Shown here: positions 44,200 to 49,698 of the stretch, piece by piece | Layout of the letters: the number at the start of each line of letters is the position of its first letter | Numbering within the stretch: position 1 is the stretch's first letter | The notes under the pieces: model-generated | Database searches by the model: none | What the model saw: only the letters and a program-made list of their open reading frames with translations | What the model was told of the DNA's origin: nothing | Program-made: the position numbers and the translations under genes | From: Bacteroidota bacterium | GTDB lineage: Bacteria; Bacteroidota; Ignavibacteria; UBA10030; UBA8401 | Length of the DNA: 49,698 nucleotides | NCBI GenBank assembly: GCA_008933835.1 | Contig: WBUG01000019.1 | Span: 1 to 49,698, forward strand | Direction of reading: 5' to 3'

Positions 44200-44207
44200 T
44201 ATTTTTG
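44200..44207 (+). promoter_or_regulatory. Possible promoter box for the globin gene
   Basis: TATTTTTG matches TAnnTTTG exactly, 142 bases before the globin ATG. The 185-base gap from 44164 is AT-rich and contains a run of nine T at about 44272-44280 and an AATATTC at about 44287. Which of these is the true start is unclear. Confidence 0.35.
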
Positions 44208-44348
44208 CAAGATTCGCGCCACGGCTTTGCAGGCATGAAAAGGAACCGGCCTCTTTCGTCCGATTTTTCCCGTTTTTTTTTCGGCACAATATTCATACTC
44301 TGCGGGAGCGGAAACCGTGACACCATTCTTTTCTTTCAGGAGACATCC

Positions 44349-44783
44349 ATGACACCGAAGCAACAAGAGCTCGTCAAGAAAAGTTTTGAGAAGGTGCGTC
44401 CGAAAGGGACCGAGATCGCCGACCTGCTCTATAAGAAGCTGTTCGAACTGGAGCCGAAGGTCGCCGGGCTCTTCCGCGGGGATATGAAGGAGCAGAAGGA
44501 GAAGCTGATGCGCATGCTGCAGATCGCCGTCGAGGGGATCGACAACCATGCGGAGCTGCAGCCGATGCTCTTCAACCTCGGCCGCATCCATCACTCCTAC
44601 GGCATCGAGGGGCACCAGTTCATGTCGTTCCAGGAGTCGCTGCTGCATGCGCTGCGCACCTCCCTCGGCACGGAGTTCACGCCGGAGGTGGAGGATGCGT
44701 GGAAGGCGGTCTACCTCTACATGGCCACCACGATGTTCAACTTCCCGCACCATGACGAGCAGGTGCAGGTGCCGCACAACTGA
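44349..44783 (+). CDS. Single-domain haemoglobin (Vitreoscilla-type globin)
   Basis: 144 residues. The helices fit the three-on-three globin fold: LVKKSFEKVRPKGTEIADLLYKKLFEL (A/B, with Tyr28 at the usual B10 place), LGRIHHSYGI with probable proximal His81, and a C-terminal helix ending VYLYMATTMF. No reductase domain follows, so it is a single-domain globin rather than a flavohaemoglobin. These bind O2 and often detoxify NO with a partner reductase. CAGGAGA precedes the ATG. A GC-rich inverted repeat (CCGGCCGG units) follows the stop. The metal cassette starts 66 bases downstream. Confidence 0.9.
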   Translation: MTPKQQELVKKSFEKVRPKGTEIADLLYKKLFELEPKVAGLFRGDMKEQKEKLMRMLQIAVEGIDNHAELQPMLFNLGRIHHSYGIEGHQFMSFQESLLHALRTSLGTEFTPEVEDAWKAVYLYMATTMFNFPHHDEQVQVPHN

Positions 44784-44849
44784 CGGAAAGGTCCCGGCCG
44801 GGAACCGTACCGGCCGGCATCGTTGTTCTCTGAATACGGTCCGTACATC

Positions 44850-45224
44850 GTGAAGAAGACCCTCACCATACTGTTCCTCATCGTCTACACCCTGCTCGGT
44901 GCGGGGGTGAGCGTGGTCATCCACACCTGCGGCGGCGTGTCCGACGCGGCGCTCGCCTCGGCGCAGTATGAGGACCCGTGCGGCTGCGACGACGGGACTT
45001 CCGCGGAAATGTGCTGCACCACGGTGATGACGACGGTGAAGGTCGAGGACGCCCAGCAGACCCCGACCGCGCCGATGCTCCAGACCGATTCCGCCGGCCA
45101 GCCGCATCCCGCTCCCCCCGTTCCGTCACTGACGGAACCGGTGTTCGCCGGCGTTCCATTCTTCGATTCCTCTCCCCCTCTCACATACGACCTGACCGTC
45201 CTTCATTCGGTGTTCCGTATCTGA
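44850..45224 (+). CDS. Small Cys-rich exported protein, HYC_CC_PP-like
   Basis: 124 residues from a GTG start (VKKTLTILFLIVYTLLGAGVSVVIH). An upstream TTG at 44823 is an alternative. Just after the signal-like helix comes HTCGG, then CGCDDGTSAEMCCT, then a Pro-rich tail. The H-x-C, C-x-C, CC and PP order resembles the HYC_CC_PP proteins common in Bacteroidota, which occur beside metal-linked TonB receptors. Six cysteines and the His could bind copper or zinc. It is the first gene of a three-gene set with an HMA protein and a TonB receptor. Metal binding is inferred. Confidence 0.7.
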   Translation: MKKTLTILFLIVYTLLGAGVSVVIHTCGGVSDAALASAQYEDPCGCDDGTSAEMCCTTVMTTVKVEDAQQTPTAPMLQTDSAGQPHPAPPVPSLTEPVFAGVPFFDSSPPLTYDLTVLHSVFRI

Positions 45225-45298
45225 GCGTACGCTGTGCTGCGGTGCGGCCGAACGGCCGTATTCCGTCATTTTCGTACACTCAACCATAAGGAACGACC

Positions 45299-45646
45299 AT
45301 GAAGACCATCGTGTTCTCCGCCATCCTCTCTCTCATCCTCCTCTCCGCTCCGGCCGTCTCGGGTGACGCCGTGAAGGAGACCTCGTTCACCGTCTCGGGC
45401 CTCTGCAACATGTGCAAGAACCGCATCGAGAAGGCGATGAAGATCCCCGAAGTGAAGTACGCGAAGTGGGACAAGAAGTCCAAGCAGCTGAAGGTCGCGT
45501 ACCTTTCGGAGAGCATCTCGCTCGATTCGCTGCAGCAGCGCCTCGCCGCCGTCGGACACGACACCGAGAAGTTCAAGGCGTCCGACGAGACGTACAACGG
45601 GCTCCCCGGCTGCTGCCTGTACCGCGACGGCGGATCCACCCACTAA
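45299..45646 (+). CDS. Exported heavy-metal-associated (HMA) domain protein
   Basis: 115 residues. The signal peptide ends near residue 22 (MKTIVFSAILSLILLSAPAVSG). The HMA fold has the metal motif GLCNMC with Cys36 and Cys39, then RIEKAMKIPEVKYAKWD and SLQQRLAAVGHDTEKF. The tail LPGCCLYRDGG carries a second Cys pair, as often seen in Bacteroidota periplasmic HMA proteins. It probably shuttles Cu(I) or another soft metal in the periplasm. AAGGAA precedes the ATG. It sits between the Cys-rich protein and the TonB receptor. Confidence 0.9.
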   Translation: MKTIVFSAILSLILLSAPAVSGDAVKETSFTVSGLCNMCKNRIEKAMKIPEVKYAKWDKKSKQLKVAYLSESISLDSLQQRLAAVGHDTEKFKASDETYNGLPGCCLYRDGGSTH

Positions 45647-45811
45647 CGACGAACCGGGAACCGGCGGACGCCGCATGCATCGTGCGGCGGAAGCACCGGT
45701 GCGCGCATCGTGCGGGAATCGTCCGGCCGCTCACGGCTCTGACGCTTTCACCGCGGGGTGCGCACTGCACCGGCCGCTCCGCTCCGGCGTCCGCGTTCCC
45801 ACGGAGGAACC

Positions 45812-48067
45812 ATGAAACGATTATCCCTGTCCTTCTTCCTGCTCGTCTCGACACTCAGCGCCCAGCAGCTCACGGGCGTGGTGCTGGAGAAGAGCGACGA
45901 CGGGACGTTCCGTCCCCTCATCGGCGCGAGCGCGTACTGGCTCGGCACCGCCACCGGAACGGTGACGGACACCAACGGAGTCTTCCGTCTGCCGCTCAAC
46001 GACACGGGAGGGCGCCTCGTGGTGAGCTACATCGGCTACCGAGCGGACACCGTGACCATCGCCGACCAGCGGAAGGTGAACATCATCCTGAAGAGCGACG
46101 CGACGGCGCTGGCGGAAGTGGAGGTGGTGGGCGAAACGCAGAGCACGTACGTCAGTTACCTCGCTCCGCAGAAGATGCTCGTCATGACCGAGCGGGAGCT
46201 CTTTAAAGCGGCGTGCTGCAACCTCTCCGAGAGCTTCGAAACGAACCCTTCCATCGACGTCTCGTTCACCGACGCCATCACCGGCACGAAGCAGATCGAG
46301 ATGCTGGGACTGGCCGGCACGTACTCGCAGATCACCGTGGAGAACCTCCCCGCCATCCGCGGACTGACGTCGACCGCCGGACTCACGTACATCCCCGGCA
46401 CATGGATCGAAAGCATCCAGGTGTCCAAGGGGGTCGGTTCGGTGGCGAACGGCTACGAGTCCATCACCGGCCAGATCAACGTCGAACTCCGCAAGCCGAT
46501 GGAGGAGGAGGAACGGCAGTTCTTCCTGAACCTCTTCGGCAATCAGGACCGGCGGTTCGAGGGGAATCTGAACGTGCGGACACCGCTCTCGCACGACCTG
46601 TCGTCCATGACCATGCTGCACGCCAGCGGACAGAACCTGGGGGTGGACCGGAACGGCGACCGCTTCCTCGACATGCCGCTCTACTCCACCCTGAACGCCG
46701 TGCAGCGGTTCCACTTCACCGACCACACCGGTCTGGAAGGGCAGTTCGGCGTACAGTTCGTGGAGGAAAAGAAGGAAGGAGGGACGCGGAACGGCGTGAA
46801 GCTCTCCGCCGCCCAGCTGAGCGCCGCACCGGCGGAGTACGCGTTCACGATGGAAGGACGGCAGCTGCGGCTGTGGGGGAAGACGGGGTACGTCTTCGCC
46901 GGCAAACAGTACCAAAGCGTCGGACTGCAGTGGTCCTACACCCGCAACCGGCAGTCCTCCTCCTTCCGCTCGCACGAGTACGCCGCGGGCGAACAGACCG
47001 GGTACGTGAACCTCATCTACCAGTCCATCTTCGACAACACGATGCACACGTTCCGCACCGGGGTGAGCATGCTCTATGACGAGTACGACGAGACGTTCAT
47101 GCACCTGCGGTACACGCGCACCGAAGCGGTGCCGGGGGTCTTCTTCGAATACACGTACACGCCGGGGGACGAGTTCTCGATGGTGGCGGGAGTGCGTGGG
47201 GACCGGCACAACAATTTCGGCGCGTTCCTCACGCCGCGCCTGCACGTGCGGTACACGCCGCAGGAGGACTGGGTCTTCCGCGCCGTGGCGGGACGCGGAC
47301 AGCGGACGGCGAACATCTTCGCCGAGAACATGGCCTTCTTCGCCAGTTCCCGCACTCCCGTGGTGGTGCGCACGGACGGCGTGCCCGACTTCCAGCGCGA
47401 ACCCGAGGCGGCGTGGAACACCGGCGTGAACGTGACGCACTACTTCCTGTGGGACTACCGCGACGCGACGGTCTCGGCGGACGTGTACTACACCGACTTT
47501 GTCTCGCAGATGGTGGCGGACCTCGACACCGATCCGCATCGGGTCATCTTCCGCGCCCTCAACGGACGCTCCTCCTCCCTGAGCGTGCAGACGGAGCTCT
47601 CCCTGCAGCCGCTGGAACGGCTCGAGACCCGCGTCGCGTACCGGTACCTGGACGTGCGGCAGACCATCGGCGGAATGCTGCGCGAACGGCCGTTCGTCGC
47701 ACGCCACCGCGCGTTCCTGAATCTCGCCTACTCGACGGAGCGCGAGGACGACGCGGAACCGCAGATGCTGTACGACCTGACCGTGCAGTGGTTCGGCAGC
47801 AAGCGCCTCCCCGACACGCAGGCGAACCCGCTCCCCTTCCGCGCGCGCGGCCATTCCCCCGCGTTCGCGCTCGCCAACGCGCAGGTGACGCGGTCGTTCT
47901 TCGCGGGACTGGACCTCTACCTCGGCATCGAGAACATCACCGACTTCCGTCAGGACGATCCGATCATCGACGCCGCGGACCCGGGCGGGTCGTACTTCGA
48001 CAGCGCCCTCGTCTGGGGACCGGTCAACGGACGGACGGTGTACCTGGGGATGCGGTGGAGGCTGTGA
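45812..48067 (+). CDS. TonB-dependent receptor of the metal-associated group
   Basis: 751 residues, signal peptide MKRLSLSFFLLVSTLSAQ, then a carboxypeptidase-regulatory-like domain (about 20-105, GASAYWLGTATGTVTDTNGVF). The plug starts near 125 with LFKAACCNLSESFETNPSIDV and GTKQIEMLGLAGTYSQI; a CC pair at this place recurs in receptors found next to HMA proteins. The barrel ends with aromatic strand VYLGMRWRL. CGGAGG precedes the ATG. Its substrate is probably a metal or metallophore, copper being the best guess from context. A 12-bp-arm hairpin follows the stop. Confidence 0.9.
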   Translation: MKRLSLSFFLLVSTLSAQQLTGVVLEKSDDGTFRPLIGASAYWLGTATGTVTDTNGVFRLPLNDTGGRLVVSYIGYRADTVTIADQRKVNIILKSDATALAEVEVVGETQSTYVSYLAPQKMLVMTERELFKAACCNLSESFETNPSIDVSFTDAITGTKQIEMLGLAGTYSQITVENLPAIRGLTSTAGLTYIPGTWIESIQVSKGVGSVANGYESITGQINVELRKPMEEEERQFFLNLFGNQDRRFEGNLNVRTPLSHDLSSMTMLHASGQNLGVDRNGDRFLDMPLYSTLNAVQRFHFTDHTGLEGQFGVQFVEEKKEGGTRNGVKLSAAQLSAAPAEYAFTMEGRQLRLWGKTGYVFAGKQYQSVGLQWSYTRNRQSSSFRSHEYAAGEQTGYVNLIYQSIFDNTMHTFRTGVSMLYDEYDETFMHLRYTRTEAVPGVFFEYTYTPGDEFSMVAGVRGDRHNNFGAFLTPRLHVRYTPQEDWVFRAVAGRGQRTANIFAENMAFFASSRTPVVVRTDGVPDFQREPEAAWNTGVNVTHYFLWDYRDATVSADVYYTDFVSQMVADLDTDPHRVIFRALNGRSSSLSVQTELSLQPLERLETRVAYRYLDVRQTIGGMLRERPFVARHRAFLNLAYSTEREDDAEPQMLYDLTVQWFGSKRLPDTQANPLPFRARGHSPAFALANAQVTRSFFAGLDLYLGIENITDFRQDDPIIDAADPGGSYFDSALVWGPVNGRTVYLGMRWRL

Positions 48068-48666: not shown

Positions 48667-49698
48667 TCATCGCACCAGCAGCATCTTCACCATCGACCCG
48701 CGGCCGTTGAACGACCCCCTCGCGACGTAGAGTCCGCTCGCGAGGGACGACGCGTCGAACCGCACCGTATGCACTCCCGCCCGGACGAATCCGTCCGTCA
48801 GCACCGCCGCTTCGCGGCCCAGCGCGTCGTACACCGTCAGACGCACAACTCCATCGGTCGGCACCGTGAACTCTATCGTGGTCGCCGGATTGAACGGGTT
48901 CGGATAGTTGGGACGCAGAACGAAACCGTCCGGCGCTTTCGGTTCGTTCCGGACCGCGAGCGGACCGCTGAAGAGCACTGAACCGGTCGTGCCCGAGCAG
49001 AGGTACTTCTTCCCGTCGATGCGCCACGGTTCGTAGTCCACGCCGAGGATGTAGAGCACGCTCCAGTACATCGCGTTGGTGTCCGGTATCTGTCCCCAGA
49101 AATCATGGTAGGTATGATCGCTGTACGTCATCTCCACGTTCAGTCCCAGCGTATCGGGATGGGGCGACTGACGGAAGGTGCGTCCTCCGGCGTTCTCCAC
49201 ATTGACCATCGCGGTACCGCTCGCGACCGCGCCGGCGAGACCGGTGACCGGCTTGTGCATCATCAACCACTGCAGGCTCCAGTTGTTGTCGTCCATCGAG
49301 TCGATGCGCGATTCGAATTGTCCGACCCTCACCGAGTACACGGCGCTGTTCCCTTTGGCGGTATACACATGGTTCCACGAGGACGAACGGCCGACCGAAT
49401 CTGCGTCCCACGTCTGCACCATGCGCAGCACCTTGTCCGGCGGCAGGAACGCCGCCAGGCTCTCGGCGGCCGCCACGGTCTCATGCATCAGCGACGGCCG
49501 GAAGCTGAAGAAGGTGAGGTTCACGCCGGTGACCGGCGCGTTGTTCACGACGATGGAATCGCTGAACGCCATGGCGTCGGCCCCCTTCTCCGGATCGATC
49601 TCGCCGTTGCCGTCCGCATCCTTGGCCGCGAGCGGCCAGTACGTCCCATTGGGCACGTAGGGGACGGTAAAGGTGCCATTCGCGTTCACGTTCGTCCA
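48667..49698 (-). CDS. Type IX-secreted protein, C-terminal part (5' end outside window)
   Basis: At least 343 residues are visible and the frame runs off the window edge, so the start is unknown. Near the visible N-end, AKDADGNGEIDPEKGADA is an EF-hand or dockerin-like calcium loop. The middle is beta-rich with no known catalytic motif. The last 80 residues are a T9SS sorting domain: NYPNPFNPATTIEFTVP, then VYDALGREAAVL, FDASSLASGLYVARG and KMLLVR. This directs export across the outer membrane and surface attachment or release. No por/gld secretion gene is in the window. Function is otherwise unknown. Confidence 0.88.
   Translation of the reverse strand, partial: WTNVNANGTFTVPYVPNGTYWPLAAKDADGNGEIDPEKGADAMAFSDSIVVNNAPVTGVNLTFFSFRPSLMHETVAAAESLAAFLPPDKVLRMVQTWDADSVGRSSSWNHVYTAKGNSAVYSVRVGQFESRIDSMDDNNWSLQWLMMHKPVTGLAGAVASGTAMVNVENAGGRTFRQSPHPDTLGLNVEMTYSDHTYHDFWGQIPDTNAMYWSVLYILGVDYEPWRIDGKKYLCSGTTGSVLFSGPLAVRNEPKAPDGFVLRPNYPNPFNPATTIEFTVPTDGVVRLTVYDALGREAAVLTDGFVRAGVHTVRFDASSLASGLYVARGSFNGRGSMVKMLLVR

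Follow-up and report, generated by a model that had tools for sequence, protein, structure and literature searches.

A three-gene locus of a Bacteroidota bacterium as a putative copper-import operon headed by a candidate copper-sensing leader peptide

Three consecutive genes of a Bacteroidota bacterium, at positions 44850-48067 of the analysed stretch of DNA (contig WBUG01000019.1, 49,698 nucleotides, G+C content 64%; hereafter, the window), are proposed, at a probability that we put at about 0.57, to form a copper-import operon governed by its own first gene, a copper-sensing nascent peptide. Rather than a carrier, gene 1 is probably a built-in sensor of copper, controlling the downstream genes while it is itself translated. 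The observed basis of this proposal is the gene order, conservation, copper neighbourhood and near-fixed spacing, together with a family-wide stop-codon bias and hairpin excess. The mechanism is supplied by CruR and CutF, and gene 1 is read as a putative CruR/CutF-type peptide lacking RAPP.

Table 1. Positions of the features of the locus in the window
Feature	Position	Strand	Details
Globin gene	44349-44783		Upstream of gene 1; Pfam Globin, 58 bits
Gene 1, Cys-rich leader-like ORF, HYC_CC_PP type	44850..45224	+	124 aa; GTG start, TGA stop
Gene 1, invariant CC pair codons	45012..45017	+	Residues 55-56
Gene 1, C-terminal PP pair codons	45174..45179	+	Residues 109-110
Gene 1, C-terminal F-R-I codons and TGA stop	45213..45224	+	End-anchored family signature
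Terminator-like hairpin, gene 1 - gene 2 gap	45241..45262	+	Possible attenuator
Gene 2, HMA-like protein with CNMC and LPGCCLYR	45299..45646	+	115 aa
Gene 3, TonB-dependent receptor	45812..48067	+	751 aa; carboxypeptidase-like N-terminal domain, plug, beta-barrel
Gene 3, receptor plug CC pair codons	46214..46219	+	Residues 135-136

The first-pass annotation had claimed three consecutive plus-strand genes with soft-metal cysteines, and we found the genes and every cysteine motif named there to be present (Table 1). Gene 1 has an N-terminal hydrophobic helix, followed by HTC (residues 25-27, within HTCGG at 25-29), CGC (44-46), the CC pair and a C-terminal SPP...VFRI segment. The base directly 3′ of its TGA is G in the window copy and T in most of the relatives having TGA. 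The gap between gene 1 and gene 2 is 74 nt, and no Rfam match at gathering score was obtained in 44200-46000. On the 3′ side of gene 3, a Pfam search placed a HEAT-repeat protein on the opposite strand.

The globin gene noticed just upstream is indeed at that position, but its link to the cassette did not hold: among the best 80 of at least 588 related loci (phmmer, 1e-5), a globin was present at only one besides the window's own, and we rejected it as a cassette member. This sole locus is L148 (the same place as L009), which is the nearest relative. Between globin and gene 1, at 44794-44817, lies a terminator-like hairpin, with 2 such sites found versus 1.7 expected by chance, and it is a weak divider of the two genes.

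Gene 2 has CNMC at residues 36-39 and CC at 105-106 within LPGCCLYR. We named it HMA-like because its score with the Pfam HMA model (PF00403, 18.6 bits) is under the gathering cut-off of 24.8, yet the CxxC is present. The top HMA-type models for this protein were those of the copper chaperone CopZ (24 bits versus a cut-off of 95), and from its hydrophobic N-terminus the product is probably exported. Both CxxC and CC were retained in 6 of the 7 aligned sequences, L037 being the one that departs. Gene 3 matched Plug (PF07715, 28.3 bits, residues 118-220) and PF00593 (67.2 bits), both over the cut-off, and the receptor CC sits inside the Plug match. This pair was found in 30/30 receptor loci (the window's own and L009-L037), which were gathered by whole-protein similarity, the CC motif not being a selection criterion; another 6 matches came without a locus. 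An OprC-specific structure was considered for the receptor and rejected, as the structure model (pLDDT 86) gave an ordinary TonB receptor fold in Foldseek. OprC, the copper TonB receptor of Pseudomonas aeruginosa, has its fold class in common with gene 3 (Foldseek rank 20, TM 0.62 by query, 14% identity) and is no nearer to it than Cir, FepA or BtuB; the OprC family model was absent among the gene 3 profile matches.

Gene 1 shows the motif order HxC, CC, PP, a criterion that is our reading of the family name HYC_CC_PP. This family is without an assigned function. The NCBIfam model (NF047658.1, cut-off 28 bits) misses gene 1 at E 0.1 and has no match in the window's genome at E 0.001. The orthologue at L009, 47% identical, reaches 32.5 bits with this model, and among 8 relatives of gene 1, 5 scored 32.5 to 153.3 bits, one scored 27.3 and two of the WQPP type gave no match. 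A profile of 56 relatives, the window protein among them, finds gene 1 at E 6.9e-21. We clustered 196 gene-1 ORFs (counted once if identical over the last 90 or 60 residues, depending on the count) at 45% identity and obtained 136 representatives, where CC was present in all 136, HxC in 113 and PP near the end in 123. PP was absent in 13/136 and R[AG]PP was found in 3/136; gene 1 itself has neither CXXC nor RAPP. This conservation of the cysteines of the three genes goes beyond chance. Membership of gene 1 in DUF2946 (PF11162), a family named twice in the passages of PMC4176598, was rejected, there being no match at E 0.1; this profile found only one other gene in the window's genome, below the cut-off.

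Gene-neighbourhood analysis agreed with the earlier statement that such trios recur in Bacteroidota. The receptor-seeded set consisted of the best 80 of at least 588 loci, and since the peptide patterns used included AACC, the CC conservation in these 80 loci is not independent. Gene 1 was upstream of the receptor in 69/80 loci, where "upstream" means within the fetched stretch and not always adjacent (e.g. L154, L185, L193), and 6 of the 11 misses were cut at a contig end. At L164, a second gene-1 match on the opposite strand was left out of the count. An HMA protein was present in 76/80 and fused to the receptor in 23/80; the position of its gene varied between before the receptor, after it, or fused. 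In all the 69 loci having gene 1, it preceded the receptor as well as the HMA gene.

The family-model-seeded sample comprised 30 loci and 80 further regions from among the matches listed. A copper-type gene was found downstream, on the same strand and within the fetched stretch, for 103 of the 111 family-seeded gene-1 genes. This gene, with the downstream families named on examples, was CusA in 50 cases, this receptor in 37, HMA in 8, of which 3 were weak matches at 18-21 bits, CusB in 4 and multicopper oxidase in 4; there was none in 8. Only 3 of 130 gene-1 genes had a same-strand copper-type gene in the 900 bases ahead of them, this latter set being a mixture of receptor-seeded and family-seeded loci. 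Other members precede HMBD/CusB proteins and two multicopper oxidases, one of the copper-resistance type (TIGR01480 at 369.9 bits, under the cut-off of that model) and one with three Pfam Cu-oxidase domains. Co-occurrence with heme-copper oxidase was uninformative (36/36 receptor genomes versus 104/112 others; 140/148 in total). The association with this neighbourhood, the HMA-receptor fusions and the conserved cysteines point to copper as the likely metal. The interpretation first suggested is partly supported: the metal-handling cassette and copper as its likely metal are kept, and gene 1 as a carrier is not favoured.

We considered gene 1 to be a cis-acting leader because of its position, the absence of a predicted fold and the near-fixed spacing to the stop, and also because of the stop usage and hairpin seen family-wide. 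The distance from CC to the stop has a median of 73.5 residues and an sd of 2.8 (136 representatives), compared with an sd of 7.6 for HxC to CC (113); the CC used was the last one 95 to 40 residues before the stop, a range that bounds the distance. Fixed spacing is also possible for a folded family of low identity. The AlphaFold2 model of gene 1, which rests on 56 low-identity sequences, had a pTM of 0.39 and a mean pLDDT of 67, the only confident part being the N-terminal helix (2-18).

TGA was the stop codon of gene 1 in 108/196 ORFs versus 74/466 long ORFs of the same loci, from which shadow ORFs were excluded (81/481 with shadow ORFs kept), and 10/95 HMA genes; after clustering, it was that of 68/136 gene-1 clusters. 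In paired loci, gene 1 had TGA and the receptor did not in 32/69, and the reverse was seen in 2 (p = 7e-8, a value too small since relatives are not independent). A T directly followed the TGA in 93/108 gene-1 genes as compared with 27/81 controls. This stop-codon bias is absent in GC-rich loci like the window's: above 52% G+C, the class to which the window belongs, TGA was found in 3/7 gene-1 genes versus 15/22 controls, and the base 3′ of the gene-1 stop was T in 1/7.

The hairpin z in the 80 bases 3′ of the stop had a median of -2.03 for the 136 gene-1 representatives, against -0.28 for 38 receptors and -0.27 for 162 others. The hairpin of the window is not significant (z -0.85, 39/200 shuffles equally good), and the number of terminator-like sites of its kind equals the chance expectation; that after gene 1 of the nearest relative is significant (z -3.03). 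No covarying pairs were predicted in the gene-1 hairpin from 15 related loci. A hairpin followed by a T-run was present in 52/136 versus 179/680 shuffles, a weak excess, in an analysis where ORF size partly decided the assignment to import or efflux, and an intrinsic terminator with a T-run was not retained. We also rejected read-through or frameshift past the gene-1 stop, as the next stop came after a median of 12 codons in frame and 9 and 9 in the other frames (means of 28.0, and 27.9 and 17.3, respectively).

In the mechanism that we propose, the receptor would import copper, probably chelated, over the outer membrane, and its plug cysteine pair would hand the metal to the periplasmic HMA-like protein of gene 2, with its CxxC plus LPxCC, which in turn may supply cuproenzymes. 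At low copper, the ribosome would stall near the end of gene 1, either in the PP region or at F-x-I/stop, and this stall would leave genes 2 and 3 on an open message. The HxC/CC cluster, ~73 residues ahead of the stop and already outside the ribosome, would bind copper; this binding is envisaged to relieve the stall and to close down the operon, either at the hairpin or through Rho. A CruR-like arrest at PP is a poor fit because PP is followed by a further ~15 residues whose end is conserved. Against the leader model, the operons headed by gene 1 include import as well as efflux operons, and these two call for opposite responses. A broader version, which we regard as doubtful, is that HYC_CC_PP proteins are phylum-wide, separately evolved Bacteroidota copper-sensing arrest peptides acting at translation termination, where F-x-I and UGA-U would hold release factor 2, the CC 73 residues back would read copper outside the ribosome, and one device would serve import as well as efflux operons.

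It is conceivable, though somewhat unlikely in our judgement, that gene 1 is a membrane-anchored periplasmic copper binder, a chaperone or sponge that partners the receptor or pump, and not a regulator; attached through its helix, it would take copper on HxC/CxC/CC and pass it on. The confident N-terminal helix with conserved cysteines after it fits this description, the occurrence with both import and efflux is easier to explain in this way than by one regulator, and GC-rich genomes such as the window's have no TGA bias. However, there is no confident fold past the helix, and a binder leaves the TGA-T bias below 52% G+C, the hairpin excess and the constant first position of gene 1 unexplained.

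It is rather improbable that the trio serves a soft metal other than copper (zinc, nickel, mercury or silver). Zinc is also bound by CxxC, CC and HxC, copper and zinc are not told apart by the CusA/CzcA models, and in Caulobacter a DUF2946 gene is said to lie near a zinc-regulated receptor. Contrary to this, the multicopper oxidases and HMBD/CusB proteins after other members, and CopZ as the best HMA-type match of gene 2, argue for copper. It is very improbable that gene 1 encodes the precursor of a RiPP, a copper-binding peptide that would be secreted and then re-imported by the receptor, similar to methanobactin or bufferin: methanobactin loci do have this layout, a short Cys-rich gene adjoining a TonB receptor, but no MNIO enzyme (PF05114) was found in the genome of the window, whose draft assembly has 163 contigs and a completeness rating of 100 percent, the trio is without a maturation enzyme, and the gene 1 family also heads efflux pumps and oxidases.

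Copper uptake and sensing are little described in Bacteroidota. Among our literature matches (titles and abstract starts), no paper was on this receptor family and none named HYC_CC_PP; the main text of a flavobacterium transcriptome paper (PMC9723704) does not have the word copper. The copper-sensing leader proposed here is best compared with CruR (DUF2946) of Bordetella pertussis, which, in the passages of PMC9426467 and PMC12914433, belongs to a CruR - CrtA/BfrG - PepSY operon and heads this copper-receptor operon (PMC12914433). Gene 1 is like the CruR described there in being a short Cys protein that bears an export signal and opens an operon containing a copper TonB receptor (export signal, operon and copper being putative for gene 1), in the near-fixed spacing of a Cys motif and a proline pair, in its poor structure and in the leader-receptor gap. 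Like CruR, gene 1 is first in a predicted copper-related operon in 69/69 (best 80 of at least 588 loci) and 103/111 cases. The two differ in that CruR has CXXC ~45 residues before RAPP, with RAPP three residues from the end, and is Rho-dependent (PMC9426467), whereas gene 1 has CC/CxC, PP ~15 residues from the end and F-x-I at the stop. According to the passages of PMC12914433, CrtA lacks a conserved Cys and more than 75% of the loci have a PepSY_TM gene downstream, while the window receptor has the invariant plug CC and the trio has an HMA gene and no PepSY.

CutF of Rhodobacter capsulatus, in the passages of PMC9973294, has a CxxxC and activates a multicopper oxidase. Like gene 1, it is a Cys peptide with C-terminal prolines; it is exported, as gene 1 may be, and has a stem-loop 3′, for which the candidate counterpart in the window is the non-significant hairpin. 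The CutF-like family has OEP, CusA, CusB or TonB genes downstream, and many of its proteins were already counted in Bacteroidota (PMC9973294); members of the gene 1 family may be among them. The PP of gene 1 straddles the last-15-residue limit of the CutF-like filter and falls outside it, the family median being 15 residues after PP. The main text of PMC9973294 does not mention HYC, and its passages contain nothing on a C-terminal F-x-I, on stop-codon usage or on a fixed distance from Cys to stop. As a precedent for stalling at a stop codon, and for nothing more, we cite the E. coli leader peptide TnaC, which senses tryptophan and where, in the passages of PMC8429421, the UGA stop with release factor 2 is the regulated step; no sequence relation is claimed. 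For RAPP/RGPP arrest peptides, the passages of a survey from 2025 (PMC12992588) report the TonB class generally in Gram-negative bacteria, and except Bacteroidota from the lineages having leaders of this kind before copper genes. If our reading is true, the gene 1 family would fill this Bacteroidota gap with a different C-terminus.

Three consecutive plus-strand genes carrying the cysteines named in the first-pass annotation are indeed present: a Cys-rich leader-like ORF (gene 1), an HMA-like gene (gene 2) and a TonB receptor gene (gene 3), on a contig with a G+C content of 64% from a 3.57-Mb draft genome. Against the Pfam HMA model, the gene 2 product scored 18.6 bits, under the cut-off of 24.8. 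The predicted structure of the gene 3 product had a pLDDT of 86, and its closest named relative among the matches listed was from an uncultured Ignavibacteriae bacterium (70%). Among the loci compared, no relative except the nearest one also has the upstream globin gene at this position. The protein encoded at 48667-49698 carries a C-terminal sorting tail of the PNYPNPFNPATTIEF type, a kind known from this group's secreted proteins.

Features of the trio, its flanks and a second leader-like locus (L231, contig G000:C131 of the same genome)
Feature	Location	Strand	Description
Globin gene	44349-44783	+	single-domain
Gene 1	44850-45224	+	124 residues; HTC, CGC, CC, late PP; C-terminal VFRI
Gene 2	45299-45646	+	HMA-like protein; CNMC and LPGCCLYR
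Gene 3	45812-48067	+	TonB-dependent receptor; Plug and barrel above cut-off; CC in plug
Sorting-tail protein	48667-49698	-	C-terminal sorting tail
Second leader-like ORF	L231:1486-1821	-	111 residues; CAVC; C-terminal HRGPPVARS
Different TonB receptor ORF	L231:1-1404	-	81 bases after the second leader-like ORF

The receptor search across the phylum covered 148 genomes, and 36 of them have it at E 1e-60 or better. Such trios had been said to recur in Bacteroidota, and this was borne out in the best 80 of at least 588 related loci from a scan of named genomes: gene 1 lay upstream of the receptor in 69 and an HMA protein was present in 76. Six of the 11 loci lacking gene 1 start at or just ahead of the receptor or fused gene (L168, L179, L181, L182, L184 and L200). 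The order was gene 1-HMA-receptor in 31 of these 80 loci, gene 1-receptor-HMA in 17 and gene 1-HMA fused to receptor in 17, other orders being fewer. Altogether, 23 of the 80 have the receptor fused at its N-terminal end to an HMA domain with LPxCC, and the same is seen in L015, L022, L026 and L029. Two partners fused in one gene are an established sign of joint action. The cysteines, whose lack of conservation had been named as part of the evidence that would refute a metal-handling cassette, are conserved: the plug CC was kept in 30/30 loci (picked by whole-protein similarity), and among 136 gene-1 cluster representatives CC occurred in 136, HxC in 113 and PP near the end in 123.

Gene 1 is assigned to the HYC_CC_PP family (NCBIfam NF047658.1). 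The cut-off of this model was passed by five of eight gene-1 relatives scanned and, across the phylum, in 105 of 395 genomes; the window's own gene-1 protein gave no match to it. We counted same-strand neighbours, inside the fetched stretch, downstream of 111 non-identical gene-1 genes from loci of the family-model search. These were a CusA-type pump (50), the copper-trio receptor (37), an HMA protein (8, three of them weak at 18-21 bits), CusB (4) and multicopper oxidase (4); eight genes had none of these, two of them with <800 bases past gene 1. Identities of CusA, CusB, OEP, HMBD and multicopper oxidase were confirmed on examples (NCBIfam, Pfam). The CusA/CzcA models do not distinguish copper from zinc; multicopper oxidases are the more specific neighbours. 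Of the earlier suggestion that the cassette may move copper across the outer membrane, copper stands as an association, suggested by a copper-type gene after 103/111 gene-1 genes. In L110, the CusA pump after gene 1 is in two ORFs (∼430 and 645 residues) with a 4-base overlap, each matching one half of the CusA model. By size alone, two-ORF pumps are also seen in L118, L115, L099, L102, L113, L119, L128 and L094, and a split pump is possibly kept across several genera.

Gene 1 is most likely a leader, a reading that rests on position, spacing, stop codon, hairpin and missing fold. It came first in all 69 gene-1-bearing loci from the best 80 of at least 588, and only 3/130 gene-1 genes had a same-strand copper-type gene in the preceding 900 bases. 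In the Flavobacterium-like loci L017, L024 and L027, a same-strand gene, by eye a metallo-beta-lactamase-fold hydrolase, ends ∼40-50 bases ahead of gene 1, and the transcript may thus sometimes begin before gene 1. The distance from CC to the stop had a median of 73.5 residues with an sd of 2.8 (136 representatives), against 7.6 for HxC to CC; in HMA proteins the CC-to-stop sd was 4.5 over a far shorter stretch. The last three residues were F-L-I, F-R-I, Y-L-I or L-L-I in 79/130. The predicted structure of the gene 1 product, made with 56 sequences as input (mean pLDDT 67, pTM 0.39), was confident only in the N-terminal helix. PP was absent from 13/136 representatives, and RAPP or RGPP was found in only 3/136.

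The UGA stop is read by release factor 2. Among 196 gene-1 stops, TGA was used in 108, TAA in 46 and TAG in 42, compared with TAA 293, TAG 99 and TGA 74 for 466 other ORFs of at least 300 residues from the same loci, shadow ORFs removed. With shadow ORFs retained (n = 481; TAA 297, TAG 103, TGA 81), the depletion of TAA gave P = 5e-20, a value too small since the sequences are related. In loci of <38% G+C, TGA ended 57/95 gene-1 genes against 11/218 controls. Among HMA genes, which are of like length and share the loci of gene 1, 10/95 had TGA across all G+C classes. After clustering, TGA remained in 68/136, followed by T in 54 of the 68. Among 69 same-locus pairs, TGA was in gene 1 and not the receptor in 32 and the reverse in 2; it was used by 37/83 receptor-linked representatives and 19/31 of the pump class, as defined by ORF size. 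Above 52% G+C, the class of the window, the signature is absent, since TGA was seen in 3/7 gene-1 genes against 15/22 controls, and T followed the stop in 1/7. The window's gene 1 ends in TGA, then G. The stop signature is thus a trait of the family in lower-G+C genomes, without extension to the window copy.

For the 80 bases past the gene-1 stop, folding was more stable than in shuffled sequence, with a median z of -2.03 over 136 representatives, a larger margin than the -0.27 and -0.28 after other genes (P = 1e-10, too small since the sequences are related). The window's own hairpin did not beat its shuffles (z -0.85), and that of the nearest relative did (z -3.03). A hairpin with a T-run was slightly above chance (52/136 versus 179/680 shuffles), and a consensus structure sought across 15 related hairpins was not obtained. 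In 15 loci of one family, judged Flavobacterium-like (L025, L028, L038-L048 and others), TTTTAATGTTTAGA stands right after the gene-1 stop, and conservation there extends beyond the coding region.

Other leader-like ORFs were also seen. The second one of this genome (weak against DUF2946, 22.4 bits, cut-off 23.7) looks like the published RGPP leader kind, which would coexist with the HYC_CC_PP kind in one genome; L229, from another genome, has the same layout ahead of a TonB receptor ORF. In L026, L029 and L037, the position upstream of the receptor is held not by gene 1 but by a Cys-rich ORF whose last residues are WQPPKIG, WQPPKLG or WQPPQLA. From its sequence this may be a second leader type, closer to CruR with PP near the very end.

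Copper leaders of the CutF kind have already been reported from Bacteroidota, possibly with this family among them, and for the kind as a whole that study names TonB and RND genes as neighbours (PMC9973294). In the literature searched (listings and parts of papers), we found no report of the link of HYC_CC_PP to this kind, of the trio with fused HMA-receptor forms, or of the Cys-to-stop spacing and stop-codon signature. In the presence of copper, Rhodobacter CutF holds back its own export and thereby opens a stem-loop (PMC9973294). Bordetella CruR comes first in a copper-receptor operon; its CXXC reads copper, the RAPP arrest is relieved and Rho ends the transcript (PMC9426467), the arrest having later been demonstrated in vitro (PMC12992588). 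Since gene 1 heads both import and efflux operons, one simple control sign cannot fit both. CruR ends three residues after RAPP, whereas the conserved end of the gene-1 family is at the stop itself. In the leader TnaC, release factor 2 is blocked at UGA (PMC8429421), and UGA is likewise the gene-1 stop in most low-G+C genomes. Because of this conserved end, the UGA stop and the TnaC precedent, we favor a model in which the ribosome would stall near or at the gene-1 stop.
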